In this document: piece after piece, positions 9,560 through 34,801 of the stretch
How the letters are laid out: each line of letters starts with the position of its first letter
How positions within the stretch are numbered: the first letter of the stretch is position 1
Virus record (IMG/VR): IMGVR_UViG_3300009158_003086
Location: 1-34,827 of that record
Direction: 5' to 3' (one strand)
DNA length: 34,827 nucleotides
Origin: a virus
Position numbers and translations under genes: made by a program
Notes under the pieces: model-generated
Told to the model about the DNA's origin: nothing
Databases searched by the model: none
Seen by the model: only the letters and a program-made list of their open reading frames with translations

Positions 9560-10149
9560 ATTTTAATGTAATAACTGAGTTTGAAAATAAAGTTGCTAAG
9601 TTCTTTGGAGCACCTTATGCAATAGCAGTAGATAGTTGTACTCACGGAGTTGAATTAGCATTACGATACACCAATACTATTCACATTAATGTACCAAAGC
9701 ATACCTATTTATCAGTCCCATTCTTAGCTAATAAACTAAACATAGAATTAGTTTGGAGAGATGAAGATTGGGTAGATTATTATTATTTAACTGCAAACGT
9801 TATTGATGCCGCTGTCCTTTGGAAAAAAGATAGTTACATTCCAAATACCTTTATGGGAGTTAGTTTCCAATTCCAAAAACATTTATCACTAGGTCGAGGC
9901 GGAATACTTTTGACTGATAATGAAGAAGCTGCAATTAAAATAAAAAAGATGTCATATGACGGAAGACTTCCAGGATTACCATGGAGAGAACAAGATATTG
10001 ATACCATGGGCTATCATTATTATATGACACCCGAAACTGCGCAGTTAGGATTAGATAAATTACCAGCAGCAATAAAAAATACACCCAGGCAGTGGGTAGT
10101 AACTGATTGGCCGGATTTGACACAAATGAAAATATTTAAAAAATTATGA
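9556..10149 (+). CDS. Short DegT/DnrJ/EryC1-type aminotransferase
   Basis: PLP-dependent sugar aminotransferase family, but only 197 residues against roughly 370 for the family. Present are the N-terminal FENKVAKFFGAPYAIAVDSCTHGVELAL, the strand NVIDAAVLW at the position of the PLP-contacting aspartate (D84), and SFQFQKHLSLGRGGILLT, where K108 is the expected PLP lysine. A YHYYMTPETAQLGL segment matches the usual dimer region, after which the protein ends. The missing part is the C-terminal small domain. It ends cleanly in an ATGA overlap with gmd, so it is a short form rather than an obvious frameshift. Paired with Gmd, it could form a GDP-amino sugar such as GDP-perosamine (inference). Confidence 0.8.
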   Translation: MNFNVITEFENKVAKFFGAPYAIAVDSCTHGVELALRYTNTIHINVPKHTYLSVPFLANKLNIELVWRDEDWVDYYYLTANVIDAAVLWKKDSYIPNTFMGVSFQFQKHLSLGRGGILLTDNEEAAIKIKKMSYDGRLPGLPWREQDIDTMGYHYYMTPETAQLGLDKLPAAIKNTPRQWVVTDWPDLTQMKIFKKL

Positions 10150-14034: not shown

Positions 14035-14053
14035 TTTTTTTATATAATTAAAT

Positions 14054-14983: not shown

Positions 14984-15912
14984 TGGCACACTTTTTTAGA
15001 ATATATAATAATGAGCTATCATCATTAGGCGAAGTCAAAAAAATTGGATTTGATATAAATGATGCATACGCAATACCAGATGAATATTTAGAACAAGGCG
15101 AATTTGTAGTAATGCGAACTTGCCACGGAATAGGCGATTGGTCAATTATATCAGCAATGCCTAGATTATTAAAACAAAAATATCCAGATTGCAAAGTTTA
15201 TGTGCCATCTACTAAAATGTTACGTACTGTGTTCGGCGAGATGCTGAATACGTGGGGCTATGGCACATATGATTGCTCCAACATAACTCTTGATATCTTT
15301 AAAAACAATCCTTATGTAGACGCATTTATTGATAGTGCAAATGAAGATATATTTCATGATCATTATAGACTATATGATTTAAATGATTCAAAAATACCAT
15401 TAGTAGAACAAATGCTTAAGTTTTGGCAATTTTCTGATGAAGAAATGCAAGACAGTAATCCTGACATATATTTTGATACTGATGAAATTAATTTTGGTGA
15501 TACATTGATTGCTGATACTTGGAACAATAAACCATATGGATATATTTCTGTGTCATCAACATTTGGAGAAACATCGGATGCACAAAATTTAATTGATGTT
15601 ATTGATAAAAATTTAAATTGGTTTTACTATGGCGAAGTTCCAATCAAAGATACAGTTTTAAATTTTTTAGAAAACGTTGTCGAAGTTAAACCTATGCAGT
15701 TATCTATCAGACAACAAATGTATTTGAAGTCAACGGCTCAAATTAATATAGGAAATGAGACAGGTATGAATCTTTGGTCGAGCAGATATTCAAAAACATA
15801 TATTTTAGGAAATAGAAAATATGGTGCAAACCATGGAGGCATAAATGAAGGTAAAATTAGAAAGGATCCATTTTCAAGTGGCAATTTTCTTAAAAATATT
15901 ATATACGTATGA
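14983..15912 (+). CDS. Glycosyltransferase family 9-like protein
   Basis: A 309-residue protein with the features of the ADP-heptose:LPS heptosyltransferase (GT9) fold. VVMRTCHGIGDWSIISAMP is a GIGD loop as in WaaC/WaaF, followed by LLKQKYPDCKVYVPS. The later YLKSTAQINIGNETGMNLW is the usual C-terminal nucleotide-sugar-binding segment with a G-N-E-T/S pattern. A poorly conserved middle part is typical of divergent phage members. It starts in a TAATG overlap and ends in an ATGA overlap with the phosphatase gene. The donor need not be heptose. Confidence 0.7.
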   Translation: MAHFFRIYNNELSSLGEVKKIGFDINDAYAIPDEYLEQGEFVVMRTCHGIGDWSIISAMPRLLKQKYPDCKVYVPSTKMLRTVFGEMLNTWGYGTYDCSNITLDIFKNNPYVDAFIDSANEDIFHDHYRLYDLNDSKIPLVEQMLKFWQFSDEEMQDSNPDIYFDTDEINFGDTLIADTWNNKPYGYISVSSTFGETSDAQNLIDVIDKNLNWFYYGEVPIKDTVLNFLENVVEVKPMQLSIRQQMYLKSTAQINIGNETGMNLWSSRYSKTYILGNRKYGANHGGINEGKIRKDPFSSGNFLKNIIYV

Positions 15913-16247
15913 AATTTTATGAATCAACTCCGTACACACAAGGTACGCAACAAGTTGCATTAGTTGATATTGATGAAACAATTTGTTGTTATCCAAATAC
16001 TCGCAGATATGATTTAGCGGAACCGATACATGAAAATATTGATAAAATTAATAAGTTGTATGACTCCGGTTGGAAAATTATTTATTGGACAGCTCGGGGT
16101 GCTATATCTGGAGCAGATTATAAACAATTTACATTGGAACAATTGAATACATGGAATTGTAAATTTCACGAACTTAAGTGTGGAGATGAAAAGCCGCATT
16201 TTGACTTAGTAATAGATGATAAAGCAAAAAGGATAGAAGAAATATGA
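15909..16247 (+). CDS. HAD-superfamily phosphatase
   Basis: A small (112 residue) HAD phosphatase with no cap domain. The nucleophile motif is D20-I-D22-E-T24 (VALVDIDETI), motif II is the threonine in KIIYWTARGAIS, and motif IV is DLVIDDKA with two acidic residues. FHELKCGDEKPHFD between them is like that of capsule-cluster phosphatases. It would remove a phosphate from a sugar or glycan intermediate. The gene overlaps both neighbours by four bases. Confidence 0.88.
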   Translation: MKFYESTPYTQGTQQVALVDIDETICCYPNTRRYDLAEPIHENIDKINKLYDSGWKIIYWTARGAISGADYKQFTLEQLNTWNCKFHELKCGDEKPHFDLVIDDKAKRIEEI

Positions 16248-17194
16248 AAAATAAACGAATTTTAATTATAGGTGGTACTGGTGCATTGGGTAGTAATCTA
16301 GTTAAACGATATTATGATACTAATACCATAATGGTATTATCTAGAAATGAACACAAACAAGAAGCATTGCGATTAGAGTTTCCAGATGTAACTTATAAGT
16401 TGGGTGATATAAAAGATAAAAATGCAATCTCTAGATGTTTTTTAGAATTCAAACCAGATGTAGTAATCAATACAGCAGCTGTTAAAACGGTTTGGGTATG
16501 CCAATCAAATCCATATGAATCAGTAGAAGTAAACATTGTTGGGCATCAAAATCTAATCGATGTTATTCAGGAAAGCACTCATAAAATTGAAACAGTAATC
16601 TTTATATCAACAGACAAAGCATGCAAACCAGTTAATGTATATGGAATGTCAAAAGCAATTGCAGAACAATTATATGTTGAATTTGCAAAACGACAAACTG
16701 ATGTTAAGGTTGTATTAGCTCGATATGGCAATGTTTTAAATTCAACGGGGTCTATTATTCCAGTATTTAAAAAGATGATTAATGACGGTGTAGAATCATT
16801 ACCCATTACAGACACTAGAATGACTAGATTTTTATTAACATTGGATCAGGCTATTGATTTAGTTGAATGGGCATATACATATCCAACATCACATGGTAAG
16901 ATTGCTATTCCTAAAATTGAATCATTAAACATTATAGATTTAGTAAAAGCAATTGCTAAAACATGCGGTAAGGAAGATATTAAATTTCATAAGATTCCAA
17001 TCCGAGATGGTGAAAAATTACATGAAGAAATGATTAGTGAAATTGAATTTCAAAGAACAGAGGATGTTGGAAAATATTATTTAATAGGTTATGAAAAACA
17101 AAATGAAGATTATGACCATTTGCCATTTAATTCAGAATATCACGTAACAAAAAATGTAATAGAATTTTTTGATAAAAACGGAATTACAATATGA
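16244..17194 (+). CDS. Nucleotide-sugar 4,6-dehydratase, CapE/PseB-like
   Basis: An extended short-chain dehydrogenase of the polysaccharide-synthesis type, likely an inverting UDP-GlcNAc 4,6-dehydratase. Evidence: RILIIGGTGALGSNL (G-x-x-G-x-x-G), INTAAVKTVWVCQSNP, FISTDKACKPVNVYGMSK with catalytic Y133 and K137, RYGNVLNSTGSIIPVF, ITDTRMTRFLLTLDQA and a C-terminal GEKLHEEMI, all typical of CapE, WbjB, FnlA and PseB. Overlap with the next CapF-like gene suggests the pair work in order. The 316-residue length is normal. The precise stereochemistry cannot be told from sequence. Confidence 0.88.
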   Translation: MKNKRILIIGGTGALGSNLVKRYYDTNTIMVLSRNEHKQEALRLEFPDVTYKLGDIKDKNAISRCFLEFKPDVVINTAAVKTVWVCQSNPYESVEVNIVGHQNLIDVIQESTHKIETVIFISTDKACKPVNVYGMSKAIAEQLYVEFAKRQTDVKVVLARYGNVLNSTGSIIPVFKKMINDGVESLPITDTRMTRFLLTLDQAIDLVEWAYTYPTSHGKIAIPKIESLNIIDLVKAIAKTCGKEDIKFHKIPIRDGEKLHEEMISEIEFQRTEDVGKYYLIGYEKQNEDYDHLPFNSEYHVTKNVIEFFDKNGITI

Positions 17195-18267
17195 TTATAG
17201 GAATTAATGGTAACGGATTTATCGGATATCATTTGTGGTGTTATTTTCATTACAAATGTGATGATGTGCATGTTATACAGTTAAATAGGAATTTGCATAA
17301 TGATTTAGATAATCTTAGTAAATGTGATGTTGTAATACATTTAGCAGAAAAGAATCGAGGGGATGAACAGGAATTATATAAAAATAACATTTCTAGTACC
17401 AATGATTTAGTTGCAGCATTAACACAATTAAATCATCAACCGTTAGTTATTTATACATCGTCGATTCATGAAGATGATGATACCATATATGGCCAATGGC
17501 GTAGAGAAAACAAAAGTACATTTTCAACTTGGGCTAAAAATAATAATTTCATATCCATTAAGTTACCAAATATATTTGGACCATTTTGCAAACCAAATTA
17601 TAATTCATTTGTTGCAACATTATGTGATTCATTAATAACTAATAGACAAATTAAATTATCAGATAACACAATAAATTTATTGTATGTAGAAAATTTATGC
17701 AAACAAATACATGATATAATTAAAGGCACTATTACTAGTATAACTTACGATTGTAGTATATCAGTTATAGAAATTTTTAATATATTGTCTAGATTCTGTG
17801 ACGAATATTATAAAAAAGGACAGATTCCGAAACTACATGATGAATTTCAAATTAATTTATTTGCAACATTTCGATCATATATACAAGGTGTAGATCGTAA
17901 ATTTTCAATAAAGCGTGTTGCTGATAATAGAGGCGAACTTAAAGAATTAGTAATTTTTAAAGAACATGGACAAATATTTTATTCAACAACAAAACCAGGT
18001 ATTGTTCGAGGTAACCATTTTCATACCAAACGAATTGAACGTTTTTGTATAGTAAAAGGCACGGCACAAATAAGTATGCGCCAGGTTGGAACCAATCAAA
18101 TAATTTCTTATATTATTAATGATACAGATAATATTGTTATTGATATGCCTCCATATTATACGCATAACTTAACAAATGTAGGATCTGAAGAATTGATATG
18201 TGTATTTTGGATGAACGACATTTTGCATGAACAACATGTAGATGATACGTATTTTGAAGGTGTTTGA
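17191..18267 (+). CDS. CapF-like bifunctional reductase/cupin
   Basis: Two domains in the CapF/WbjC order: an N-terminal NAD(P)-binding domain (GINGNGFIGYHLW, DVVIHLAEKN, VIYTSS) and a C-terminal cupin (GIVRGNHFHTKRIERFCIVKGTAQI, then DMPPYYTHNL). CapF-type enzymes epimerise and reduce the dehydratase product of CapE on the way to UDP-N-acetyl-L-fucosamine. The usual catalytic Y-x3-K appears here as Y100-GQW-R104, with arginine in place of lysine, so reductase activity may be altered. No CapG-like 2-epimerase was seen in the island. Length 358 residues, near the CapF norm. Confidence 0.82.
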   Translation: MIIGINGNGFIGYHLWCYFHYKCDDVHVIQLNRNLHNDLDNLSKCDVVIHLAEKNRGDEQELYKNNISSTNDLVAALTQLNHQPLVIYTSSIHEDDDTIYGQWRRENKSTFSTWAKNNNFISIKLPNIFGPFCKPNYNSFVATLCDSLITNRQIKLSDNTINLLYVENLCKQIHDIIKGTITSITYDCSISVIEIFNILSRFCDEYYKKGQIPKLHDEFQINLFATFRSYIQGVDRKFSIKRVADNRGELKELVIFKEHGQIFYSTTKPGIVRGNHFHTKRIERFCIVKGTAQISMRQVGTNQIISYIINDTDNIVIDMPPYYTHNLTNVGSEELICVFWMNDILHEQHVDDTYFEGV

Positions 18268-18917
18268 TGAAATTATTAAATTTTGATAGAGTATTATGTT
18301 TGTCTCCGCATCCAGATGATGTAGAATATAGTATGGCAGGCACTATAATAAAATTCAATGATACTATTTTTGATGTTCTATGTTTATCGCATGGCGGTGA
18401 TTTAGATTTAACTACTAATTCATCTAGAGTCAATGAGGTACGAGATGTATGGTCGACAGCCAATTGTAACAATGTTAATTTGCATTTTTCAGACAACAAG
18501 TTTCTTAAAGAACGAGAAGAAGATTCTTGGGTTAATTTTATAGAAACAAATTATTTAAGACTTAATAATTATGATTGTATAATGACTACATCGCAAATTG
18601 ACAGTCACTTTGAACATAAATTAATTTGCAATCTAGGCCCTGCATTAACAAGAGGTATATGGCCAAATAGAACATCTCCAATTTCATTGATTGAATACAA
18701 GTCTCCTAGTACTTTAGATAATTGGATTCCGAACATGTTTATTGACATTTCAAATGTATATGATATCAAATTAAACATGTTAACAAAATTCAAATCACAA
18801 CAGCATCATACGTATTTTGATAGTACAGTACTAAATTCATTTCATTCAAATTATCAATGTGCAAAAAAGAACATGTTAATAACAGAACAATTTAGAATAA
18901 GTCAAACATTTATATAA
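18267..18917 (+). CDS. PIG-L family (LmbE-like) zinc deacetylase
   Basis: Start taken at ATG 18267 in a TGATG overlap with the CapF-like gene. The 216-residue protein has the N-terminal PHPDDVE zinc-site motif (LCLSPHPDDVEYS), LSHGGDL, and a later DSHFEHK with the second histidine pair. PIG-L/LmbE enzymes remove N-acetyl groups from GlcNAc-type sugars, using zinc. In this island it may deacetylate an N-acetylated sugar to make a free amine, which a ligase such as the ATP-grasp protein could then modify (inference). Confidence 0.88.
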   Translation: MKLLNFDRVLCLSPHPDDVEYSMAGTIIKFNDTIFDVLCLSHGGDLDLTTNSSRVNEVRDVWSTANCNNVNLHFSDNKFLKEREEDSWVNFIETNYLRLNNYDCIMTTSQIDSHFEHKLICNLGPALTRGIWPNRTSPISLIEYKSPSTLDNWIPNMFIDISNVYDIKLNMLTKFKSQQHHTYFDSTVLNSFHSNYQCAKKNMLITEQFRISQTFI

Positions 18918-18918
18918 T

Positions 18919-19842
18919 ATGAAAATAGCATTTTTTACTGAAATGGGTTTCGGAGGAAAGATTCCTAGGAACCATGGCAATATGAGAACTGAGTTTGCTT
19001 GGATGTGTGCTTTAGATGCAGAACATTATAATATTAATCAAGCAATTACCTCAACTAGTTATATTGAATCACCAGTATTTGATTTAGGTATAGTTATTAT
19101 TCCAAAAAATGTTAATGAATTTGATCTTAACTCGTTACGGATGCTTTGCAAACAAATTGCAGTTATGCAAGAAGGTCCAAATTGGAACTGGCAGGATTAT
19201 GAATTACCAAAACAAATTTGGTATTTTAATACATTAACATCTGCAGATATTATTTTTACACATAATGAGTTGGATCGAAAATACTATCAAGGATTAACAA
19301 ATCATCCGGATGTTAGAGTTATGCAATCATTAATGATTACGGATTCTATAGGTACATTAGACACTGTTGAACGAAGCGGTGTTATAATTGGTGGCAACTT
19401 TGTTTCGTGGTATGGTGGCTTTGATTCATATGTAATTGCACAAGAATTTGATGATGTAGTACATGCACCATCGATGGGTAGAAAACAACCATTAGAGGAA
19501 CAGTTGATTACACATTTGCCATATATGAATTGGACACAATGGATACACGCATTAAATCAATTTAAATATGGAGTACACTTAATGCGCACACACGCAGCAG
19601 GTACATTTGCTTTGAATTGTTCTTATTTAGGAATTCCATGTATTGGGTATCGAGGATTAGATACTCAAGAAACATTGCATCCGGAATTAACTGTTGATTT
19701 AGCAGATTTGCAAACAGCTAGGAAATTAGCAAAACAACTTACGTCCGATGATGCGTTTTATAAACATTGTAGTACAACAACAAAGGAATTATATCAGCAA
19801 CATTATTCTGAAAACATATTTATAACAAAGTTCCAAGAATGA
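18919..19842 (+). CDS. Glycosyltransferase-like protein (GT-B-like, 307 aa)
   Basis: Starts one base after the deacetylase stop. Opens with KIAFFTEMGFGGKIPRNHGNMRTE, like a GT-B N-terminal loop. Features in the second half: GVIIGGNFVSWYGGFDSYV, then a segment ending HLMRTHAAGTFALNCSYLGIPCIGYRG, which resembles the sugar-nucleotide-binding domain (small residues followed by a G-I-P-x-I-G strand). There is no clear E-x7-E motif, so family membership is by overall pattern. Its place between a deacetylase and an epimerase supports a transferase role. Confidence 0.65.
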   Translation: MKIAFFTEMGFGGKIPRNHGNMRTEFAWMCALDAEHYNINQAITSTSYIESPVFDLGIVIIPKNVNEFDLNSLRMLCKQIAVMQEGPNWNWQDYELPKQIWYFNTLTSADIIFTHNELDRKYYQGLTNHPDVRVMQSLMITDSIGTLDTVERSGVIIGGNFVSWYGGFDSYVIAQEFDDVVHAPSMGRKQPLEEQLITHLPYMNWTQWIHALNQFKYGVHLMRTHAAGTFALNCSYLGIPCIGYRGLDTQETLHPELTVDLADLQTARKLAKQLTSDDAFYKHCSTTTKELYQQHYSENIFITKFQE

Positions 19843-20711
19843 ATATATTAGTTACAGGTGGTGCTGGGTTTATAGGTACCAATTTAATCAAACGTTTATT
19901 AAATGATGGCCATTCAGTGGTATCACTTGATAATTATAATACTGGATTGCATACGAATCATCAAGTAGGTGCAGTATATGTTAATGCTGATATTCGCAAT
20001 TTAGAAGAACATTCTGATGCATTTTGGCAAAAATTTGATGTTGTATATCATTTAGCAGCAATTGCTAGAATACAACCATCCTTTAGTCAACCAATTGAAT
20101 ACTTTGATACTAATGCAATGGCTACAATGAAACTAGCTAAAATTTGTGTTGATTGTAATATTCCAATAATATATGCAGGATCCAGTTCGCATCACTCCGG
20201 AAAGTTTAAGAATCCATATACATTTAGTAAAGATATTGGAGAAGAAATAATTAAATTGTTTCAACAACAATATAATCTTAATGCATCTATTGCTAGATTC
20301 TATAATGTATATGGACCATATCATTTAAAACAAGGCGGTTACTGTACATTGTTAGGCAATTGGGAACGTTGTTTAGAAACGGAAGAACAGATTGTCATAT
20401 ATGGCGATGGATCTAAACGAAGAGATTTCACTCACGTAGATGATATTGTTGATGCATTAATAATGATTTTCGAACAACAACAATGGGGCTATGAATTTGA
20501 GTTAGGAAGAAATAAAAATTATTCAGTATCGGATATTGCTAACTTATATAACATATCCAATATTGAATATCTAGATGATAAACCAGGCGAAGCAGATGAA
20601 ACATTGTGCACCGATATGACAGCACACAATGTATTAGGGTGGAAACCATGTAAGAATGTTGATGAATATATAAAAAGTTATAATGAAAATTTCAATAATA
20701 CAACCAAGTAG
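19839..20711 (+). CDS. NAD-dependent sugar epimerase/dehydratase
   Basis: An extended short-chain dehydrogenase of 290 residues. Visible: MNILVTGGAGFIGTNLIKRL with G-x-x-G-x-x-G, SLDNYNTG at the NAD-binding acidic position, VVYHLAAIARIQPS, GSSSHHSG, the catalytic Y127-x3-K131 in NPYTFSK, RFYNVYGP and GDGSKRRDFTHVDDIV. This is the UDP-glucose 4-epimerase/UDP-glucuronate-type family; the substrate is not determined. It overlaps the next gene by 29 bases and the preceding one by four. Confidence 0.9.
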   Translation: MNILVTGGAGFIGTNLIKRLLNDGHSVVSLDNYNTGLHTNHQVGAVYVNADIRNLEEHSDAFWQKFDVVYHLAAIARIQPSFSQPIEYFDTNAMATMKLAKICVDCNIPIIYAGSSSHHSGKFKNPYTFSKDIGEEIIKLFQQQYNLNASIARFYNVYGPYHLKQGGYCTLLGNWERCLETEEQIVIYGDGSKRRDFTHVDDIVDALIMIFEQQQWGYEFELGRNKNYSVSDIANLYNISNIEYLDDKPGEADETLCTDMTAHNVLGWKPCKNVDEYIKSYNENFNNTTK

Positions 20712-21882
20712 AAACAACTTAAAATATCTTAAATGGTCATATGATGCCATTAGAAAGAATCAAGGTCATCATACGGTAGAAATATGCGTAGCAGACGATT
20801 TTAGTGATAAAGATGGCACATGGCAATGGTGTCAGGAAATGATGCAAACAGATACACATTTCAAAGCTATTCGTAACGAAGGACCAAGTCGACTAGGACA
20901 TACTATTTTATATGACCAACTAGTTAATGAAGTTGCATCACATGACATTTGTATGATATATCACGCAGATATGTATTTATGCCCAGGCGCATTAGATCAT
21001 ATTGAACAACATATTGGTGCTAAAAAGATTGTATCATTAACAAGAATTGAACCACCATTACATCCACCTGGACCAGAAAAAATATTATTAGATTGCGGCA
21101 TTGAACCTGAAGAGTTTGATGAAGATAAATTGCTACATAATATAGAAATGGAATATGATATTATTTATAAAGATAAAATTACAGAAGGAATATTTGCTCC
21201 ATGGGCATTTATGAAAGCAGACTTCCAAGAGATAAATGGACATGATCCTTTGTATGCACCACAATCAAAAGAAGATTCAGATATATTTAATAGATTCCAA
21301 TTAAATGGAGTTACATTTATACAAACTTGGGAAGGACTAGTTTATCATATGACATGTAGAGGTAGCAGATTTAATCCAACCCTAACAACGCCAGGACAAA
21401 ATAGTCCAGAATGGGAAGCTCAAAATCAAAGATCAACAAGAAACTTTATACGTAAGTGGGGACACTTTTGCAAACATGATGAATTCATGAAACCAATTGT
21501 TCCACCTAAATATAATATTGCATTTCGAGTAACAAATTGTAATATGTCAATGGTAGAAGCATTGGAGCCATGGTGTGATCGAATTTATATAGATAACGAT
21601 ATGCAGGTATTGATTGATTCATATATTGAAAAAGAACAACCAAATACTAAATTTGATTTAACTAAACGTGTATTTTGTATTGGATATAATGATCCTGAGG
21701 GTGAAAATGATATTGTTGTTGATATTGATGGAAAACGATTTGGAAACAATGAATATTATTTAATACAACAACTTACAGAAATAATAAAAGATTCCGGAGA
21801 ACCAGGAACATTCAAATTAAATAGTTTACAGGTCACAATTATAACGTTACAATCATATGAACAAGATTTAATTGTAGTGTAA
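20683..21882 (+). CDS. Glycosyltransferase family 2-like with C-terminal extension
   Basis: Last gene of the island. The 399-residue protein begins with MKISIIQPSRNNLKYL and CVADDFSDKDGT (GT2-type strands). MIYHADMYLCPGALDHIEQ contains an HAD in the usual D-x-D place. The region APWAFMKADFQEINGHDPLYAPQSKEDSD (quoted here only in part in function: the acidic ED pair near 205) resembles the acceptor-side segment of GT2 enzymes. A C-terminal part of about 120 residues (from roughly 280) is extra and of unknown function. The start overlaps the epimerase gene by 29 bases, consistent with coupling. No gene follows for 87 bases. Confidence 0.78.
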   Translation: MKISIIQPSRNNLKYLKWSYDAIRKNQGHHTVEICVADDFSDKDGTWQWCQEMMQTDTHFKAIRNEGPSRLGHTILYDQLVNEVASHDICMIYHADMYLCPGALDHIEQHIGAKKIVSLTRIEPPLHPPGPEKILLDCGIEPEEFDEDKLLHNIEMEYDIIYKDKITEGIFAPWAFMKADFQEINGHDPLYAPQSKEDSDIFNRFQLNGVTFIQTWEGLVYHMTCRGSRFNPTLTTPGQNSPEWEAQNQRSTRNFIRKWGHFCKHDEFMKPIVPPKYNIAFRVTNCNMSMVEALEPWCDRIYIDNDMQVLIDSYIEKEQPNTKFDLTKRVFCIGYNDPEGENDIVVDIDGKRFGNNEYYLIQQLTEIIKDSGEPGTFKLNSLQVTIITLQSYEQDLIVV

Positions 21883-24256: not shown

Positions 24257-26704
24257 ATGCAGAACAATTCATTAATATTAAATAATATATTTCTTGAAGA
24301 AATAATTAGAGCAAAACTACTTGATACGCACGATAACTCAGCAAATACATCAAAATTAAACGAACAAGTTGGATTTGATAAGTATACAAAGAATTATAAC
24401 ACAGAAGTTCGGCCAATTGCAGCATTAGGATTAAAGTACGATTCCAAACAGGCTAAATTTATAAGACTTCAAGTTAAAGCCGCAACTGAATTACAAAAAC
24501 AGCTTAATGCAACGACAGCTTCGGGATTACTGGATAGTCCAGCTGAACAAAAAAAATATATGTCATATATGAGACCAAAAGCAGTATATGATAAATTAAA
24601 AGACAAATCATCATATTTTCTTCCATGGAAAAACACCGCAGCAGATTCATTTTTTAAAAATATTGTGAAAAACAGTACTGGTGCAATGACAGGTGTATAT
24701 GAAAATCACACCAATCCAGACAAACAGTGGTATTCATATCAAATATTAATGATCGCAGTCTCCGGCAAAACCCGATGTGTTGTTCAATTTCATCCGGATG
24801 GAACATGCAATATTTCCGATGAAGGTCCGCTTTCCGTTAGCAAATGGAATTATTCAATAAAGGGTGGCAAGTTATATATAACTCAGCCAGATATAGATAA
24901 ATGGATCATGAAGTGTACACCTAGTGCATATTATCTTGTTGCTGAATTTAATCCGGAGTTAAACAACAAAGTATTTGATCCATACAAAGGCGCAGGATTT
25001 TGGAAATCTGCTTGGCTAGATCTTACAGGATATCGTAAAGAAAATTATTGGGCAACTAAAAAAGATCCACAAAAATCATATGAAGAAAGTTCGGACGCTT
25101 TTTGGGATGTAGTACAAACAATTGGTGACTGGGCCGGACTTATTCCTGGATATGGTGATATAATCGATATCGCCAATGCAATAGGATATTTTTCACGAGG
25201 AAAAAAATTCGAAGGTTGTTTATCGTTAATAGCAATAGTACCGGTGGTTGGATCTGTTATTAAACTAGGAGTTAAAAACGGAGTAAAAGCTCTTCGTGTT
25301 GGCAACAGAGTTGGATGTGAAGCCATAGATGCAATAATAGCTAACCCAACTCTTGGAAGTATATTATTAGATTATCTTAGAAGAAATAAAGCAGCACGTG
25401 ATGCATTTAAAGCTTTCATAAAAAATGCACACAAAGCATCAGCATGGCGACCAATTGTAACTGCAGTAATTAATGTATTGAGATGGATACCTGGTGCTAA
25501 AATGGTATCAGAGGCATTAAATGTAATGTTGCGAGATTACGGTACCGCTTTTGATAACTATTTCCGAGGCTCCATTTTAAAATTAGATCAACTAATACAA
25601 ACTTTGGATGTTGGATCCGATGCTGCTAAACTAGGAGCTAAAGCGGAACGAGAAACAGCAGAAAAGTTAGCAACAGATAACGCTGCAGCGGCAGTAGAAA
25701 CCGGCAAATTATTTGGTAGACCGTTACGTAAACGATTAATACAAGATCTTGGTAGTACTATACTTAACGGTGCTGGGAGACTTAATAAGTTTCTAGAAAA
25801 AATAGTAGGAAAAGAATTTTGGGATGCATTAAGTCGAAGTATGTCTAATAATTTTGTTAAATTTGCTAGCAACTTGCCATTAAAAGAATTTATAGGATTA
25901 ATCAAAGCGTCACCGGGCGGCATAGCTTTATTTGTACGATCGCTTAAAACATATGATGAAACAATTATAAGATATTTTATAGACAACCGTATTTTACCAG
26001 GTATAATACTACCTGGTGCACGATTGTCTGAAAATTGGCGTGCATTAACGGTATATATAGGTAGAGCAACCGATCGGGAATTAAGAACCGTCATGCGTCA
26101 TATTAGAGGCTCAATGGCGGGCATGCCAGAAAGGATAACTGATTTAAACTATCGCGTAATAACATCGCTAATTTCAGAAGGTAACGCCTTCTATAAAGTA
26201 TGGTGTATGAAATTTTGGAATATTATACGCGGCGCTGCTCCATGGGCAATTTATAAATGGGCAAAAGATGGTAAATATATTTCATTCGTAAAATATGGTA
26301 CTCAACCAAATCTACTTACTAAATCATTTACTCCGATTTATAAAGCAATTGACACGTGGCTAGCTGCAATACCAATTGCAGGTCCAATCATAGCGGCGCC
26401 AATAAAATTGTTACTTAAAGCTCTAGACGGATTAACTAATTTAAAACGATTAGATATAATTTGGAATGAATTACAAGACTTTTTTGAAAATACAACAGGA
26501 AAAGATCTGTCAGTCAACGAAAAACAAAGTGTTATTCTATCAACATTCGCATATTTCATAGGTAATGCGCCATATGATTTGATAAATTATCTGATTAAGA
26601 TAGTTGGCGGAGTTCTACCAAAAGGTGTTGTACCAGTTAATAGACCAACAGAAATTCCGATGGTAAAAAATCAAGGATTTGCCAAAAAATTAAATGATAA
26701 ATAA
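24257..26704 (+). CDS. Large virion-type protein with pretoxin-like hydrophobic core (815 aa)
   Basis: The largest gene of the window. The N-terminus (LILNNIFLEEIIRAKLLD) contains a possible L-x-E cleavage site. Residues 140-220 contain a strand-rich part (VQFHPDGTCNISDEG, YSIKGGKLYITQPD). Residues 283-345 are hydrophobic and helix-prone (GLIPGYGDIIDIANAIGYF, then LIAIVPVVGSVIKLG), a pattern like the pretoxin (PT-TG) region of polymorphic toxins. Residues 400-780 form long amphipathic helices with further hydrophobic patches. I recognise no catalytic domain. It may be an internal or tail-associated ejection protein. No repeats or frameshift were noticed. Confidence 0.65.
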   Translation: MQNNSLILNNIFLEEIIRAKLLDTHDNSANTSKLNEQVGFDKYTKNYNTEVRPIAALGLKYDSKQAKFIRLQVKAATELQKQLNATTASGLLDSPAEQKKYMSYMRPKAVYDKLKDKSSYFLPWKNTAADSFFKNIVKNSTGAMTGVYENHTNPDKQWYSYQILMIAVSGKTRCVVQFHPDGTCNISDEGPLSVSKWNYSIKGGKLYITQPDIDKWIMKCTPSAYYLVAEFNPELNNKVFDPYKGAGFWKSAWLDLTGYRKENYWATKKDPQKSYEESSDAFWDVVQTIGDWAGLIPGYGDIIDIANAIGYFSRGKKFEGCLSLIAIVPVVGSVIKLGVKNGVKALRVGNRVGCEAIDAIIANPTLGSILLDYLRRNKAARDAFKAFIKNAHKASAWRPIVTAVINVLRWIPGAKMVSEALNVMLRDYGTAFDNYFRGSILKLDQLIQTLDVGSDAAKLGAKAERETAEKLATDNAAAAVETGKLFGRPLRKRLIQDLGSTILNGAGRLNKFLEKIVGKEFWDALSRSMSNNFVKFASNLPLKEFIGLIKASPGGIALFVRSLKTYDETIIRYFIDNRILPGIILPGARLSENWRALTVYIGRATDRELRTVMRHIRGSMAGMPERITDLNYRVITSLISEGNAFYKVWCMKFWNIIRGAAPWAIYKWAKDGKYISFVKYGTQPNLLTKSFTPIYKAIDTWLAAIPIAGPIIAAPIKLLLKALDGLTNLKRLDIIWNELQDFFENTTGKDLSVNEKQSVILSTFAYFIGNAPYDLINYLIKIVGGVLPKGVVPVNRPTEIPMVKNQGFAKKLNDK

Positions 26705-26717: not shown

Positions 26718-28061
26718 GTGCTACTAGAATACAAAACACATGGTGAACTTAATCCAAAGCTTTGGGCAGATAATAATCTGCGTTCAAAATTACATGCTGG
26801 GTTGTTAAAGATTGCAGATCATTTTTATGATTTTTTAGAAATAGATGTGCCTATCCAAGACATCATTTTAATAGGTAGTAATGCTAATTATAATTGGACT
26901 AAACATAGTGATATTGATTTGCATGTTATAGTTAACTATTTAGAGATTGGAGATAATCTACATCTTGTAAAAAACTATTTGCATGCAAAAAAAAGTGTAT
27001 GGAATTCAAATTATCCTTTAAAATTTAAAGGCATGAACATTGAATTGTATGCACAAGATTCAAATGATAGTTTGCATTCAAGTGTTGGTATATATTCATT
27101 GCTTAATAAAACATGGATACAAAAACCAAATTCAAAAATTATATCAATTGATGATTCTGCAATACAGCAAAAAACACAGTCATATGAATATGAAATAGAT
27201 GCATTATCAGAATCAGATCCAAAATTAGAATTTAAGATTAAAGATTTATTGCTGCGACTACGCAATTTACGACAGGCAGGACTAGAAGCTGAAGGTGAAT
27301 ATTCATTGGAAAACTTGGCATACAAACATCTTCGTAACACGGGTCATATAGAACGATTAAAACAATTATTAAAAACTAGCACACTAGGACAATTATCGAT
27401 AGATATGCCATTAAATGAACTTAATATACAAAACAACTTGCAAACAGGTAAGGCTCAAATCAAAAAGTTTTTGCTAGCAATGAAAAATGAAGGTGTTGAA
27501 ACAAAACAAGCCTTTAAACTATTAATGCAACATGTTGCAGGTGAAAAACTAGATGATGCTGATTGGAAGTTTATTAAGACTCAAATGAAAGATGTAGTTA
27601 AGTTGATTGGATTAACAACTGTAGCAATTGCCCCGGGTGGGACGTTAGTGGCATTGTTAGCTCGAGCACTTAAAGTAGATAAATACATGTTGCCGTCTTC
27701 ATTTAAAACGGAAAAAGAAGTTACTGAATCATTGATAATGCATGTAACAAAGAAACGAACATTGGATGATGATGGGTGGCACCATGTTATGAAACATATG
27801 CGTGGTGTTGAAGATCCGATGGGACAATGGAATCATCCCGGCAAATGCACAATGATTCCTAGCAATAATATTACAATGCAACAAGTAAAATATCCAGTAC
27901 TGGGAATTGATGACACAGGCGATATGCAAATGATGCAACCTGATAAATCATATAACTATCCAGGTACTAAAGTATTTGAAATACCACATACGCCGGAATG
28001 GCAAACAGTTATAATGCAATTACGTAATGCAATACAAAATGGATCGACTTATGCAGAATAA
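26718..28061 (+). CDS. Nucleotidyltransferase-like protein with LETM1-like segment; GTG start
   Basis: No in-frame ATG lies between the upstream stop and the conserved N-terminus, so GTG 26718 is the start. The N-terminal domain has LIGSNANYNWTKHSDIDLHV (51-70), the G-S-x(10)-D-x-D pattern of the nucleotidyltransferase superfamily (G53, S54, D65, D67). Residues about 259-330 include a helical region followed by APGGTLVALLARAL and MLPSSF, like the ribosome-binding LETM1 segment. The C-terminal part is rich in histidine and methionine. The 447-residue protein is probably a late-expressed enzyme or virion component that modifies a target by nucleotide transfer, but no target is known. Confidence 0.7.
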   Translation: MLLEYKTHGELNPKLWADNNLRSKLHAGLLKIADHFYDFLEIDVPIQDIILIGSNANYNWTKHSDIDLHVIVNYLEIGDNLHLVKNYLHAKKSVWNSNYPLKFKGMNIELYAQDSNDSLHSSVGIYSLLNKTWIQKPNSKIISIDDSAIQQKTQSYEYEIDALSESDPKLEFKIKDLLLRLRNLRQAGLEAEGEYSLENLAYKHLRNTGHIERLKQLLKTSTLGQLSIDMPLNELNIQNNLQTGKAQIKKFLLAMKNEGVETKQAFKLLMQHVAGEKLDDADWKFIKTQMKDVVKLIGLTTVAIAPGGTLVALLARALKVDKYMLPSSFKTEKEVTESLIMHVTKKRTLDDDGWHHVMKHMRGVEDPMGQWNHPGKCTMIPSNNITMQQVKYPVLGIDDTGDMQMMQPDKSYNYPGTKVFEIPHTPEWQTVIMQLRNAIQNGSTYAE

Positions 28062-30205: not shown

Positions 30206-30844
30206 ATGGCATATATAGAGCACAACTTCTTCCCACTCAAAGTCTTTGTACGGGATGAATACCTTTATCAACACAAAAAAGGACAAGGTAATTTTACAGA
30301 GGGAATTGTAATTTCAGTAAGATGTATGCCTGGTCAGGTAGCGTTATTTCAGGTATTATTAAATAATGGCGTACTGCGAGACAAATTACCAAGTCATGCA
30401 CTTCTAACATCACCTAATACGCCAACACCAGATTTGCCATTTCATTATTTGCAAATTTGGAATTGTTTTTCCTATAATTTTACTTTGTTGCAACTTAATT
30501 TTATTAAAGATGCACCGGTAGAAATATATATGAAAAATCGTCAATGGTATTCCGGCAAATACTTTGCTACTATTAATTGGGGGTCGAATGATATTAATAC
30601 TGATATATCATTAGCTGAAGATCCCATAGAACATAAATCACATCATATCATACTAATGAACAATGGGCAAGTTGCATTGCAACCTAATAATCGTATAAAA
30701 TGGTCTGAACCATCATTTGTAACAAAACCATTTCCAATTAAACCAGATTATCTTGTTTGCAATGAATTTTATAATTCAGAAGATACAGAAAAATGGCATA
30801 CCGAAGATTCTGACAGAATGTTTTATGATAATACAATAAATTGA
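30206..30844 (+). CDS. Conserved phage hypothetical protein (212 aa)
   Basis: Starts two bases after the preceding stop. The first half is strand-rich (FTEGIVISVRCMPGQVALFQVLL), then LPSHALLTSPNTPTPDLP and FHYLQIWNCFSYNFTL. The C-terminal half has a WGSNDINTDISLAEDPIEHK block. Proteins of this type seem to recur in the late region of large phages, but I know no function. It has no signal or membrane segment. The stop TGA opens the 18-base repeat that precedes the next gene. Confidence 0.55.
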   Translation: MAYIEHNFFPLKVFVRDEYLYQHKKGQGNFTEGIVISVRCMPGQVALFQVLLNNGVLRDKLPSHALLTSPNTPTPDLPFHYLQIWNCFSYNFTLLQLNFIKDAPVEIYMKNRQWYSGKYFATINWGSNDINTDISLAEDPIEHKSHHIILMNNGQVALQPNNRIKWSEPSFVTKPFPIKPDYLVCNEFYNSEDTEKWHTEDSDRMFYDNTIN

Positions 30845-30852
30845 TATTTATT
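30845..30852 (+). promoter_or_regulatory. TATTTATT element, first copy of an 18-base repeat
   Basis: The 18 bases TGATATTTATTAATATGA (30842-30859) run from the stop of one gene to the start of the next and are repeated exactly at 33607-33624. The TATTTATT core ends only three bases before ATG 30856. A promoter giving a normal leader for this start would have to lie elsewhere, so the repeat might instead favour translation or be an RNA element. Confidence 0.4.
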
Positions 30853-30855: not shown

Positions 30856-31188
30856 ATGAAACTATACAATTTACTATTTGAATCCAAACAAACTAACGAT
30901 AAGTTTGAGGAATTTGCAGAGACTCGAGGTAAAGGTGCTGCTAAGATAGCGTCTACTGCTGAAGAGAAAGGTGGTCTTGCACTATTAACATGGCATCACT
31001 TTAAAGTGAAAGCTGCATATTATCGTAAAGCCACTGCGGGTAACTTTGAAATTGATTCTGCAAAAAAAGAATTTGCTGAAACACTTAAAAAGATTTCATT
31101 GGATATGACAGCAATTGAATTTCAAAGAGAAGTAGGTCGTTTAGAAGTATTAGGTGAATTGATTATCCGCGATAAAAAAGGCAAATAA
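30856..31188 (+). CDS. Late protein with candidate capsid-targeting N-terminus (110 aa)
   Basis: Start at ATG 30856; TTG 30841 in frame is inside the preceding gene. The N-terminus MKLYNLLFES reads as a short targeting peptide ending in L-F-E, a consensus cleavage site of the T4-type prohead protease ((L/I)-x-E). The rest is a basic helical protein (GAAKIASTAEEKGGLALLT, then VGRLEVLGELIIRDKKGK). T4 internal head proteins have a similar peptide (for example MKTYQEFIAE). The cleavage has not been shown. No other function recognised. Confidence 0.6.
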   Translation: MKLYNLLFESKQTNDKFEEFAETRGKGAAKIASTAEEKGGLALLTWHHFKVKAAYYRKATAGNFEIDSAKKEFAETLKKISLDMTAIEFQREVGRLEVLGELIIRDKKGK

Positions 31189-32000
31189 TGATTCGTTTAA
31201 AAAGTTTATTGAATGAGAGTGTAGCAACTGCTGATTCAATTGCTTGGGCTAAAAAATTTCAAGATGAATTAGGATTAACACCAGAAGCTGCTGCAGCAAT
31301 GGCAGCAAACATACAACACGAAAGTGGATTTATACCTGACAGAATACAAGGTGCTGGAATTAAAACAGGAACGATGGCTGACTCTGGAAAATTAGGTTAT
31401 AGTTGGGCACAATGGACTTTTGGTCCACGTAAGCAGTCATTTCGCAAGTTTATTTTAAACATGTTTAACATAGATATCAATAAAAAACCAGCAACTAATA
31501 AACATGCGTATGCATTTTTAAAGAGTGAAATAGGAAATTATCCAGGATTTAATTTTGATAAATTTAAACGATCAACTAATTTAGAATCAGCTACAGAATA
31601 TTTTGTCACTAAATATGAACAAGCAGGTAAGCCGATGTTAGACAAACGCATTGCAATTGCTTATTCAATTTTAAATAAAATTAAATTACTTAATACAAAT
31701 CAATCATCAACATCGTACATCGATGTTACATATACATCAGATAATCCGCCATATACAGATTTATTAAAGAATCCAATTCCTAAATTAATTGCATCGGTAC
31801 TCAAACAATCTCTTGGTACATTTAATGATTATGAAGCATGGGCCGAAGCAGCTTTCATGGCAATAAAAACCAAATCAAAATATGCGCAAGTTACTAAGAT
31901 ATTAGGCCGAGATGCATATGAATATGTTAAATCATTTATGAATACGGGTACTAAATATCACAAACAACCGATTGATATCTCGTATAAGTCGTTAACATAA
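31188..32000 (+). CDS. Phage tail lysozyme-domain protein with candidate capsid-targeting peptide
   Basis: The N-terminus MIRLKSLLNESV ends in L-N-E after ten residues, like a targeting peptide. The following domain resembles the Phage_lysozyme2 (tail lysozyme) family: LTPEAAAAMAANIQHESGF with E45 as the candidate catalytic acid, then LGYSWAQWTFGPRKQSF. It should cleave peptidoglycan, locally during entry or at lysis. About 100 residues at the C-terminal end are of unknown role. The gene overlaps the preceding stop in TAATG. Confidence 0.8.
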   Translation: MIRLKSLLNESVATADSIAWAKKFQDELGLTPEAAAAMAANIQHESGFIPDRIQGAGIKTGTMADSGKLGYSWAQWTFGPRKQSFRKFILNMFNIDINKKPATNKHAYAFLKSEIGNYPGFNFDKFKRSTNLESATEYFVTKYEQAGKPMLDKRIAIAYSILNKIKLLNTNQSSTSYIDVTYTSDNPPYTDLLKNPIPKLIASVLKQSLGTFNDYEAWAEAAFMAIKTKSKYAQVTKILGRDAYEYVKSFMNTGTKYHKQPIDISYKSLT

Positions 32001-32027
32001 TTTAGCAACATTTGGATTTATTAACAT

Positions 32028-32039
32028 TATTTTATATAA
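32028..32039 (+). promoter_or_regulatory. AT-rich TATAAT-like stretch before 32046
   Basis: The 45-base gap after the lysozyme-domain gene contains ATTATTTTATATAATATAGT immediately upstream of ATG 32046. It is a degenerate relative of the TATTTATA element (TATTTTATA) and includes TATAAT. A similar ATATAATATAGT precedes ATG 2936. Promoter function is a guess from composition. Confidence 0.28.
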
Positions 32040-32045
32040 TATAGT

Positions 32046-32243
32046 ATGAATGAAAACTTTATAGATAAATTATTTATAGAATCAATCAACATAATGAAGA
32101 CGGCAGATTGGATGTGGCCTCCTCGTTGGGATACTAATAGAATAAATAAGTTTTTAAATGATTCATTAATATATGCAGAAAAAAATGAGTTCTATGAACA
32201 ATGTAGTATTATCAGAGATGTTAAAAAAACAATCGAATCCTAA
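32046..32243 (+). CDS. Hypothetical protein (65 aa)
   Basis: The N-terminus (MNENFIDKLFIESINIM) also has an F-I-E like a weak targeting peptide, but it lacks a strict L-x-E. The middle has WMWPPRW and the rest is a helix (DSLIYAEKNEFYEQCSIIRD). No family recognised. It shares 71 bases with the downstream ClpS-like gene if that gene starts at 32173, and less if one of its later ATGs is used. Confidence 0.45.
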   Translation: MNENFIDKLFIESINIMKTADWMWPPRWDTNRINKFLNDSLIYAEKNEFYEQCSIIRDVKKTIES

Positions 32244-32481
32244 GCGCGGCAAATATCAAGTTATATTGCATGACGACAATAAAACTACGTTTGATCATGT
32301 TGTTGATTGTTTAATGGATGTTTGTAGTCATAATGAATTGCAAGCATATCAATGTGCATTAATTGTGCATAATTCCGGAAAGTGTTCTATATTTGTTGAT
32401 TCATATGATGAGTGTGAACTAGTATGTGAATACTTGAATAAATTGCATTTAAAAGTTACAATAGAAAAATTTAAAAAATGA
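32173..32481 (+). CDS. clpS: ClpS-like N-degron adaptor (102 aa)
   Basis: A protein resembling the ClpP protease adaptor ClpS. From residue 28, YQVILHDDNKTTFDHVVDCL matches the E. coli ClpS region that binds N-degrons: D34 and D35 correspond to its N34 and D35, and H66 in IVHNSGK corresponds to its H66. M40 is phenylalanine here. The TFDHV and QCALIVH and GKC signatures are those of Bacteroidota ClpS. Starts at ATG 32173, 32185 or 32194; none has a clear ribosome-binding site. It may redirect host ClpAP (or ClpCP) proteolysis to other substrates; this function is inferred. Confidence 0.72.
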   Translation: MQKKMSSMNNVVLSEMLKKQSNPKRGKYQVILHDDNKTTFDHVVDCLMDVCSHNELQAYQCALIVHNSGKCSIFVDSYDECELVCEYLNKLHLKVTIEKFKK

Positions 32482-32675
32482 TATTACGATTATTAACACC
32501 GTTTTATAAATTTAAGATTGCATTACTTCATGCAAAATATCATAAACATATGCGACGAGCAGATATAGCACGTGCAGCATCTGATATTATTAAATTTAAA
32601 AAACATGTATACAATGCCGAAGACGCTTGGCGCAAATTAGTTATATTAACACATAAAATCAAACCAAATGGGTAA
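32478..32675 (+). CDS. Small basic hypothetical protein (65 aa)
   Basis: Coupled to the ClpS-like gene by an ATGA overlap. The product is basic, with many lysines, arginines and histidines (KFKIALLHAKYHKHMRRADI). It looks helical and could bind nucleic acid or a partner protein. No family recognised. It overlaps the next gene by eight bases. Confidence 0.5.
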   Translation: MILRLLTPFYKFKIALLHAKYHKHMRRADIARAASDIIKFKKHVYNAEDAWRKLVILTHKIKPNG

Positions 32676-33054
32676 AAAATCAGCACACACAGGAATGTCT
32701 CCTAAGGATAGATCTATCAATTTAATGGATAAATTTATTAGACGAAATGAAAACAGAAATAGAGATATGCCGTTTGTATCTGCAATTAGAAAAGATTCGA
32801 ACATTCCTATAGACCAATGGCCTTTAAAGGATCAAATTGAATATTGGAATAACAGAACCGATAAAGACAGATTTGTGGACAAGTATCCAGTATATTCGTT
32901 TTGGATCGATGCCGTTCAATCAATATCAAAAGTACACCCGCAAACATTTACAGATTGGACCGTAAAGTTAAAACCTAGGTTGCAAGAATTATATGATGGC
33001 AAAGTATCTCCAAAAGAAACAATGATTGAACTAAGGAAACTAGGTGTATATTAA
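32668..33054 (+). CDS. Hypothetical protein (128 aa)
   Basis: A basic, polar protein with an N-terminal GKKSAHTGMSPKDRSINLMD and tryptophans in PIDQWPLKDQIEYW. The last third is helical (KLKPRLQELYDGKVSPKETM). I recognise no domain. It overlaps the preceding gene by eight bases and its stop abuts the HNH gene start. Confidence 0.5.
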   Translation: MGKKSAHTGMSPKDRSINLMDKFIRRNENRNRDMPFVSAIRKDSNIPIDQWPLKDQIEYWNNRTDKDRFVDKYPVYSFWIDAVQSISKVHPQTFTDWTVKLKPRLQELYDGKVSPKETMIELRKLGVY

Positions 33055-33609
33055 ATGGAACCGAAGCAGTATAAATACATATATGGCATAGGCAAAACAG
33101 CACTCGATATTCCAGAAAGTGAAATTCGATATGCAATGGAGAATACAAAATCTAATGCTGAAGCGGCTCGCTTTCTCAAAATATCATTTACTACTTATAA
33201 AAAGTATGCTCGATTATATACTGATAGAGATACCAATAAAACATTGTATGAACTGCATAAGAATCAATTCGGCATTGGTATAAGAAAAGATGTAGCAAAT
33301 GCCCGTAAAGGAATTTATTCAATTGACAATATACTTGAAGGTAAACATCCTCAGTATCCTACCTGGAAGTTACGCAATCGATTATTAGCATTAGCAATTC
33401 TGCCAGAAGAATGCGGCAGCTGTGGATATTCAGAACGCAGAGTAACGGATGATACTGTGCCTCTATTTTTAGACCATCTAGACGGCGATGCAACAAATCA
33501 TTGCATAGAAAATTTGCAAATGTTATGTTTAAATTGTTTTTATCAACAATCAGGTAACCCATTCAATGAAAATAAAGAAAATTATTGGAATTACAATTTA
33601 CTTGAGTGA
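33055..33609 (+). CDS. HNH endonuclease-like protein with N-terminal helix-turn-helix
   Basis: The N-terminus (about 30-55, KSNAEAARFLKISFTTYKKY) resembles a helix-turn-helix DNA-binding segment. The C-terminal half has a C120-x2-C123 pair, FLDHLDGDATNH with D140-H141, IENL with N153, and LCLNC (C158, C161), matching the zinc-bound HNH layout. An aromatic residue follows the last cysteine where many family members have histidine. It looks like a site-specific DNA endonuclease, possibly a free-standing homing enzyme. Confidence 0.8.
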   Translation: MEPKQYKYIYGIGKTALDIPESEIRYAMENTKSNAEAARFLKISFTTYKKYARLYTDRDTNKTLYELHKNQFGIGIRKDVANARKGIYSIDNILEGKHPQYPTWKLRNRLLALAILPEECGSCGYSERRVTDDTVPLFLDHLDGDATNHCIENLQMLCLNCFYQQSGNPFNENKENYWNYNLLE

Positions 33610-33617
33610 TATTTATT
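33610..33617 (+). promoter_or_regulatory. TATTTATT element, second copy of the 18-base repeat
   Basis: TGATATTTATTAATATGA at 33607-33624 is identical to 30842-30859. As in the first copy it bridges a stop codon and a start codon. This identity supports ATG 33621 (rather than ATG 33630) as the start of the next gene. Confidence 0.4.
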
Positions 33618-33620
33618 AAT

Positions 33621-34370
33621 ATGATATCAATGAAATCACTTATAATAGAAGGCCGGTATGACGGATTAGTTACTCAGTTATCTAATAAATTATTAGGCCT
33701 AGTAAAATCTAGTTATGCTGCTGTAACAGATCCGGATGGAACATTTTCAGGACAAAAGATATATTTTAAACAAGGTGAGACAGTACCTAATATCGATGAT
33801 GATGCAGTACAGAAACACATTTACTTTGAAGAAGTTGATAACACAACTATCCCGGTAGAATTTTATTTGTCACTTAAAGTACAATGGATTGACGGGTTTA
33901 ATGATTTCCGTGCCGGTGGAGATGCATATAATGATACAACGAAGCAAGCCGGCGAACCACCTTTAATTGAAATAAGATTTCAAATAGATACCGCTGAGTA
34001 TCCAAAGGTATTATCAGAAGTAGCAATGCAACTTCGTGACACATTACGACATGAAATTGAACATGTAACTCAACCGGGTTGGAATTTAATTGATGGTAAA
34101 TATATTCCTTCCGACCAGGCATTGAGAACAAAAATAGAAACAGGAACTTTGCCTCCAGCTCGTTACTTTACATTGCCAAAAGAAACACCAGCAATGCTTC
34201 AAGGAATGTATTTTAAGGCTAAGAAATCAAAAATACCATTCAAACAAGTTGTTAATGATTATTTAGATATCTGGGTATCTAACAATACCATTACAGATCA
34301 AGATAAAGAATCCATATTAACAACATGGCGAAACTATTTACCAAAACTAGGAATAAGGCAGGAGATATAA
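33621..34370 (+). CDS. HExxH metalloprotease-like late protein with candidate targeting peptide
   Basis: The ATG at 33621 is chosen because it lies at the same place in the 18-base repeat as the start of the 110-residue late gene. The N-terminus MISMKSLIIEG ends in I-I-E after ten residues, like a capsid-targeting peptide. LRDTLRHEIEHVTQPG contains H144-E-x-x-H148, the zinc metalloprotease signature. The rest is mostly strand-rich (VEFYLSLKVQWI, LIEIRFQIDTAEY). Likely a late, possibly packaged, metallopeptidase of unknown target. 249 residues. Confidence 0.72.
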   Translation: MISMKSLIIEGRYDGLVTQLSNKLLGLVKSSYAAVTDPDGTFSGQKIYFKQGETVPNIDDDAVQKHIYFEEVDNTTIPVEFYLSLKVQWIDGFNDFRAGGDAYNDTTKQAGEPPLIEIRFQIDTAEYPKVLSEVAMQLRDTLRHEIEHVTQPGWNLIDGKYIPSDQALRTKIETGTLPPARYFTLPKETPAMLQGMYFKAKKSKIPFKQVVNDYLDIWVSNNTITDQDKESILTTWRNYLPKLGIRQEI

Positions 34371-34801
34371 TGTATCATATCGATGAAGCATGTTGGGATG
34401 GCTACCAACAATTTGGAATGAAGAAAAAAGGTGGAAAGCAAGTACCAAATTGCGTTCCAATTAAAGAAGCTGATGGTTATTGTTCATCATGTTTAATTGA
34501 AGCAATTGAATCTGCAGATGCAAATCCAGAATACATACACATAATGCAACCAGGTATCAACGAAGCAGAATACCATGGACGTAAAGTTCAATTAGGTAAA
34601 CCAACTCGTGGTGATGTTAAAAAATTTAAGGTCTACGTTAAGAACCCAAAAGGCAACGTTATAAAAGTTAATTTTGGCGATCCCAATATGAAGATTAAAA
34701 GTTATATTCCTGCACGTAGACGCAGTTACAGAGCCAGACATCATTGTGAAAATCCAGGACCTAGAACCAAAGCAAACTATTGGTCTTGTAGAAATTGGTA
34801 A
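34370..34801 (+). CDS. Conserved virion-type protein with C-terminal Cys/His/Trp motif
   Basis: Start placed at ATG 34370, in a TAATG overlap and preceded by GGCAGGAGATATA, a good ribosome-binding site; ATG 34325 would overlap the preceding gene by 46 bases. A 143-residue protein: an acidic N-terminal part (YHIDEACWDGYQQFG, then KKGGKQVPNCVPIKEA), a middle KFKVYVKNPKGN block, and a basic C-terminus RRSYRARHHCENPG followed by YWSCRNW. This last motif block recurs in late proteins of large marine-type phages (recalled, not checked). Function unknown; a structural or head-associated role is inferred. Confidence 0.6.
   Translation: MYHIDEACWDGYQQFGMKKKGGKQVPNCVPIKEADGYCSSCLIEAIESADANPEYIHIMQPGINEAEYHGRKVQLGKPTRGDVKKFKVYVKNPKGNVIKVNFGDPNMKIKSYIPARRRSYRARHHCENPGPRTKANYWSCRNW

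Follow-up and report, generated by a model that had tools for sequence, protein, structure and literature searches.

Three genes of an uncultured T4-like phage, in the viral IMG/VR record IMGVR_UViG_3300009158_003086, whose entire 34,827-nucleotide stretch was analysed here (hereafter the window), open with a peptide of nine or ten residues that ends in (L/I)xE, and we consider it very likely that these leaders belong to a T4-type system of capsid targeting and prohead proteolysis with an expanded set of cargo proteins. We observe directly that the leader is modular, that its functional positions are conserved, that ΦxE junctions (Φ, hydrophobic residue) are conserved within larger proteins and that related phages encode the protease; the first three of these observations support, at the level of sequence, a role as a targeting and cleavage peptide, and by analogy the logic of T4 capsid targeting can explain everything that we found. 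The preliminary description of this DNA, which likened the peptides to those of T4 internal proteins and proposed that their bearers are packaged in the head and injected, identified the peptides correctly and is probably correct on their role too.

All three reported N-termini were confirmed, and each lies on the plus strand. A conserved 110-aa protein (30856..31188, from open reading frame (ORF) calls) starts at ATG 30856 with MKLYNLLFE|S, codons 1-9 of which occupy 30856-30882; a Phage_lysozyme2-domain protein (31188..32000) starts at ATG 31188 with MIRLKSLLNE|S (codons 1-10, 31188-31217); and a predicted HExxH (zincin-like) protein (33621..34370) starts at ATG 33621 with MISMKSLIIE|G (codons 1-10, 33621-33650). 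The lysozyme domain attributed to the second protein is recognized by Pfam (PF18013, E = 7.9e-17, residues 25-164). Longer alternative starts at TTG 30841 and GTG 33606 ('MIFIN...') merely read through the upstream ATATTTATTAAT motif. These proteins share with the T4 capsid-targeting type a short N-terminal leader with a terminal (L/I)xE, MKLYNLLFE being one residue shorter than the T4 pattern so that its register is shifted. In an AlphaFold2 model of the HExxH protein (predicted local distance difference test, pLDDT, 70), residues 1-11 are disordered and the first helix begins at residue 14; a Foldseek search with this model returned no significant match, the zincin-like entry 3e11 standing second (E = 0.16). 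The nearest isolate relative of the window is Flavobacterium phage immuto (36% in the HExxH domain, 68% in the 110-aa protein), and the long IMG/VR relatives compared were G001 (130 kb, with an HExxH protein 73% identical to that of the window), G002 (87 kb) and G003 (101 kb).

For a count across whole genomes, the pattern MxxΦxxΦΦxE was fixed from T4 IPII, IPIII and gp24, and the T4 sequences in NC_000866 conform to it: MKTYQEFIAE for ipII and ipIII, MAKINELLRE for gene 24. Expected counts were taken from internal positions of the same proteins, a control for composition. The pattern opens 2 of the 50 window genes against 0.12 expected (P = 0.006), and it also opens 7/145 genes in G001 (0.35 expected, P = 8e-8), 5/171 in G003 (0.5 expected, P = 1.6e-4), 3/108 in G002 (0.29 expected) and 4/225 in immuto (0.67 expected), an enrichment at gene starts that bears out the claimed resemblance to T4 targeting peptides. 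A looser criterion, (L/I)xE near the N-terminus, did not exceed chance in the window (5 of 50 genes versus 3.7 expected), as would suit a fortuitous likeness in AT-rich proteins rich in Leu, Ile, Lys and Glu. We assign that explanation a negligible probability, given the enrichment in G001 and the outcome of an IMG/VR search with a DNA pattern for MI(K/R..)LKxLLxE, which matched at least 120 stretches, whereas a codon-shuffled pattern of equal specificity gave 11 matches in the whole collection. Among the matches listed, moreover, 121 of 128 fall at gene starts, and MI(K/R)LKxLLxE opens at least 121 IMG/VR genes. Chance resemblance was ruled out by these enrichment, shuffled-pattern and gene-start controls.

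What stands behind the leader varies from gene to gene. The 111 complete leader proteins fall into at least 60 body clusters, 44 of them singletons, with no similarity detectable past the leader, and such unrelated bodies behind one leader are characteristic of the T4 internal-protein type. Pfam searches with cluster representatives found phage lysozymes, LysM, cell-wall hydrolase, ART-PolyVal (ART, ADP-ribosyltransferase), NUDIX, zeta toxin, AAA_33 and DnaJ. Between the 110-aa and HExxH genes of relatives, MIRLKxLLxE precedes bodies of Phage_lysozyme2, GH24 or hydrolase type, and at one locus (L004) the leader of the 110-aa gene, MKLYNLLFES, is fused straight to a lysozyme body that elsewhere follows MIRLKxLLxE: leaders are swapped in nature from one gene to another, with the join at E|S. 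Body motifs were used to collect 80 homologs of the 110-aa protein. Their leaders come in several spellings, and each of the 80 retains an N-terminal ΦxE, in the form (L/I)xE between residues 9 and 12 and mostly as E|S or E|A; these 80 loci are related and hence do not represent 80 independent events. The glutamate persisted when the search did not ask for it. With E demanded at position 11 rather than 10, E10 was also present in 60 of 75 gene starts, and with the positions after 8 left free it was retained in most real genes: 40 of the 120 stretches from that search were new, 30 of these 40 were spurious ORFs of fewer than 50 codons, and 8 of the 10 real new genes without E10 had LLE with E9. 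The leader strings were not found in the literature text searched. Two other shared end modules were seen in the same proteins or loci. The C-terminal tag KYDASGIDTPGDPNM ends 8 distinct proteins (L172, L092, L146, L155, L174; L051), 7 of which also bear a leader of the MIRLKxLLxE type, and a second, longer N-terminal module with two ΦxE sites, (L)AENMxRFGTKNLxE, occurs at L044, L045, L047, L055, L086 and L141, directly after MIKLKNLLAE in the last two.

Ten N-terminal residues of T4 IPIII are enough to have a protein packaged, with positions 4 and 7 directing targeting and positions 8 and 10 processing, and gp21 cleaves after L/I-x-E (PMC9026906). The conserved positions of the leaders described here coincide with these functional ones, namely hydrophobic 4 and 7 for targeting and 8 and 10 for processing. 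The residue after the glutamate (P1') favours G/A/S/N (27/60, P = 0.002) and avoids L/P/R/F/W/Y/V/H (6/60, P = 8e-5), and among 16 HExxH homologs, whether free or fused, E10 and G11 never vary. Leader codons differ synonymously among copies in four genomes (CGT, CGA, CGC and CGG for Arg; TTA, CTT, CTA, TTG and CTG for Leu), and this variation shows that the constraint acts on the peptide. The same variation speaks against a likeness at the DNA level, in which a conserved translation-start or promoter region would encode the peptide incidentally. A ATATTTAT motif does lie 5' of several leader genes, but it is absent from several others and no start codon is found at the internal junctions described below, which makes this explanation extremely improbable.

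The cut motif recurs within larger proteins. Distant relatives carry the HExxH domain within fusions of 800 to 1,500 residues, where it is still preceded by ΦxE|G, and the domains of large multidomain proteins are repeatedly parted by ΦxE|(N/A/G/S). For another metallopeptidase domain, GKTAYY, 80 loci were retrieved and scored over 57 distinct upstream 12-mers: ΦxE|N stands ahead of it, with Glu at P1 in 54/57 and L/I/V at P3 in 54/57 distinct contexts, and P4 to P12 are unconstrained. The GRKV domain, also encoded by window gene 34325, follows ΦxE|(A/S/G)EY in all 21 of the distinct contexts compared. Junctions were judged by how well they are conserved when the upstream context differs, and not by pairwise BLAST domain cores, which are uninformative as a junction test because shared domain order merges the cores; near-complete Pfam domains in the polyproteins are few and not all of their ends adjoin ΦxE, and that statistic was left out of the argument. 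Domains identified in the multidomain proteins include superoxide dismutase and a plastocyanin-like domain (L024), zeta toxin (L028), a nucleotidyltransferase palm and GNAT. The L024 phage protein (L024:3071-6829) combines a complete Fe/Mn superoxide dismutase with a plastocyanin-like copper domain, and ΦxE|N lies near both.

Judging from these junctions, cargo polyproteins are probably cut by the protease. A fuller proposal, to which we give an even chance, is that T4-like phages of aquatic Bacteroidetes make their injected cargo as head polyproteins, in which a single targeting leader would load chains of unrelated enzyme domains that the prohead protease would then cut at ΦxE|(N/A/G/S) into separate effectors; we are equally divided on whether these chains comprise domains of nicotinamide mononucleotide adenylyltransferase-like, HExxH peptidase, superoxide dismutase, plastocyanin-like, zeta-type kinase and HAD type. 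The leaders are amphipathic and positively charged, and might on that account be helices that anchor proteins to the membrane or to a host factor with no link to the head. Such an anchor would leave unexplained the invariant Glu 10 with its free P2 and small P1', the exchange exactly at the Glu boundary and the recurrence of ΦxE where domains join inside proteins, and we judge it very unlikely.

With regard to the gp21-like protease for which the preliminary description looked to the rest of the genome, the fragment and its relatives differ: the search within the 34.8-kb window gave no match, whereas the S77 family (PF03420) is present in G001 (E = 4.8e-35, over the curated Pfam cut-off) and G006 and is encoded by immuto. 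As far as the relatives go, this result favours the role proposed in that description. Of 26 leader-bearing records, 17 contain S77, and none of the eight that reach 80 kb or more lacks it. Wherever a leader-bearing record has a T4-type portal, S77 is present too (17 of 17). H85 and S140 of T4 gp21, which we take to be its catalytic residues, are conserved in the aligned S77 proteins of relatives, and opposite the T4 gp23 site E65|A the aligned major capsid proteins (MCPs) of leader-bearing phages have ΦxE|A. One leader-bearing contig, G100 (167 kb), has no S77 and no portal, with T4-type MCP and core genes present. It ends between the core and terminase genes, where the protease and portal would be, and was rejected as a counterexample since the break coincides with that segment. 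As a separate observation, insertions interrupt the Pfam match in T4-type portal ORFs (1440 and 1021 residues), and an S77 ORF in G010 is likewise split; these candidate inteins or other insertions are at G024:45345-47567, G034:21566-23788 and G010:67546-69132 and 71514-72392.

From the analogy with T4 we infer scaffold binding, packaging in the head, cleavage and injection. The ten-residue amphipathic leader, hydrophobic at 4, 7 and 8 and with Glu at 10, would bind the prohead scaffold core and bring its protein inside; a gp21-family S77 protease would cut after ΦxE during head maturation and release the cargo, which would exit with the DNA into the host. In T4-like phages of Bacteroidetes type the leader is a module that can be exchanged among dozens of unrelated enzymes, and large multidomain proteins with the same cut motif between their domains would be trimmed to separate cargo units. 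Several points weigh against this scheme. The window is a linear fragment from which head genes are absent, and we found virion proteomics or cleavage data for none of these phages; Phage_lysozyme2 is a family of tail lysozymes, and one of the cargo proteins might therefore belong to the tail; the domains of the polyproteins might natively begin with ΦxE, which would then mark no site of cleavage; and S77 occurs in 3 of 5 chance IMG/VR contigs of at least 80 kb. Because of this last figure, S77 co-occurrence alone is modest evidence, and as proof of the system it was rejected, S77 being common in large IMG/VR contigs. The leader might instead be a virion-assembly tag for the tail, baseplate or another structure, left uncleaved by the prohead protease, as Phage_lysozyme2 and the other lysozyme domains typical of tails among the bodies would suggest. 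We regard this as improbable: the majority of bodies do not resemble tail proteins (ART, zeta-toxin-like kinase, NUDIX, DnaJ), conservation falls on the T4 targeting and cleavage positions, and both the P1' bias and the internal ΦxE junctions point to cleavage.

Beyond the three leaders, T4-type targeting and proteolysis may extend to other plus-strand genes of the window. The 158-aa protein encoded at 34325..34801 has predicted junctions at IKE48|A (34460-34468) and INE80|A (34556-34564), followed by a C-terminal GRKV domain, and its residues 79-158 match phrog_7595. A nucleotidyltransferase-like protein (26718..28061, GTG start) begins MLLE|YKTH and possibly carries a very short leader, as in T4 Alt, on weaker evidence than that for the three main leaders; (L/I)xE|Y(K/E)T opens it in 4/4 genomes compared, with homolog starts MIQE|YKTH, MLNE|YETQ and MKIIRE|YETQ. 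The preliminary description had missed both this N-terminus and the internal INE80|A junction. The 815-residue protein (24257..26704), which the preliminary description had named as a weaker match, is unsupported as a leader carrier, as its N-terminus, MQNNSLILNNIFLEE, departs from the pattern derived from T4; G001 holds only a weak partial homolog of it (36% over 78 aa). The ATATTTAT motif, a putative promoter element, is found on the plus strand at 30844..30851 and 33609..33616, in each case 4 nt 5' of the start codon (30856 and 33621). Motifs of the ATATTTAT/TATTTATA class, seen at L039-L045 of G001 as well, lie upstream of 36/145 G001 genes versus 1.8% of random windows, with sheath, tube, hub and portal genes among those 36, and are possibly late promoters; at 4 nt from the ATG, as in some leader genes, a nearly leaderless mRNA would result. 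Elsewhere in the window, 4568-21882 holds a long run of glycosyltransferase, nucleotide-sugar and methyltransferase-like genes with counterparts in immuto, and 30206-30844 belongs to a family labelled ferredoxin or PurM by PHROG 3704 and GenBank, of which the ferredoxin label looks wrong because the expected cysteine cluster is absent.

Compared with that of T4 itself, the cargo set of this T4-type capsid targeting is far larger and rich in enzymes, and an extension to polyproteins is likely. Like T4 IPI, IPII and IPIII, the proteins described here carry on unrelated bodies a ten-residue leader with hydrophobic 4, 7 and 8 and Glu 10, together with the (L/I)xE cut motif and, in relatives, a gp21-family protease; unlike them, they begin with MI(K/R)LKxLLxE or MKLxxLLFES rather than MKTYQEFIAE. 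T4 Ip1 to Ip3 have only the leader in common and inhibit GmrSD restriction enzymes (PMC12373910), whereas the cargo here often consists of recognisable enzymes from dozens of families. The leader-bearing ART-PolyVal proteins recall T4 Alt, an injected ADP-ribosyltransferase with propeptides, as does a short propeptide ending in Glu, but the Alt propeptide has about 7 residues and its C-terminus is cut too (PMC9026906), and no search that we made matched these proteins to Alt. The N-terminus of T4 gp24, MAKINELLRE|S, fits the leader pattern, and the MCPs described above retain the gp23 site E65|A, although both T4 proteins are shell components and not cargo. Polyvalent proteins are likewise large phage or plasmid proteins that join unrelated enzymatic domains, metallopeptidase and ART domains included, and are proposed to be injected; an embedded metallopeptidase has been suggested as their processor (Iyer et al. 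2017, PMC5512222), whereas the ΦxE junctions here suggest the prohead protease. The phage proteins described here do combine multiple unrelated enzymatic domains in one chain, and the likeness is one of general type, PF18760 ART-PolyVal being the only published family seen on leader proteins. The ejection proteins of SPN3US and phiKZ come from a separate phage lineage, and to our knowledge their propeptides are not one shared ten-residue module. As in the system proposed here, many proteins are ejected and some propeptides are reported to be removed by a gp21-related protease (PMC5694885, PMC7411985).

If this interpretation is correct, a ten-residue signature would reveal, from nothing more than sequence, which proteins an abundant group of uncultured phages injects, much as secretion signals do for secreted proteins, and with predicted cut sites exact to the residue. 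The candidates that bear the leader, among them ADP-ribosyltransferases, kinase-like folds, a zeta-toxin-like protein, NUDIX proteins and cell-wall enzymes, are plausible agents of host takeover or counter-defence, and the leader would flag a large hidden set of proteins that related aquatic phages probably inject into bacteria.

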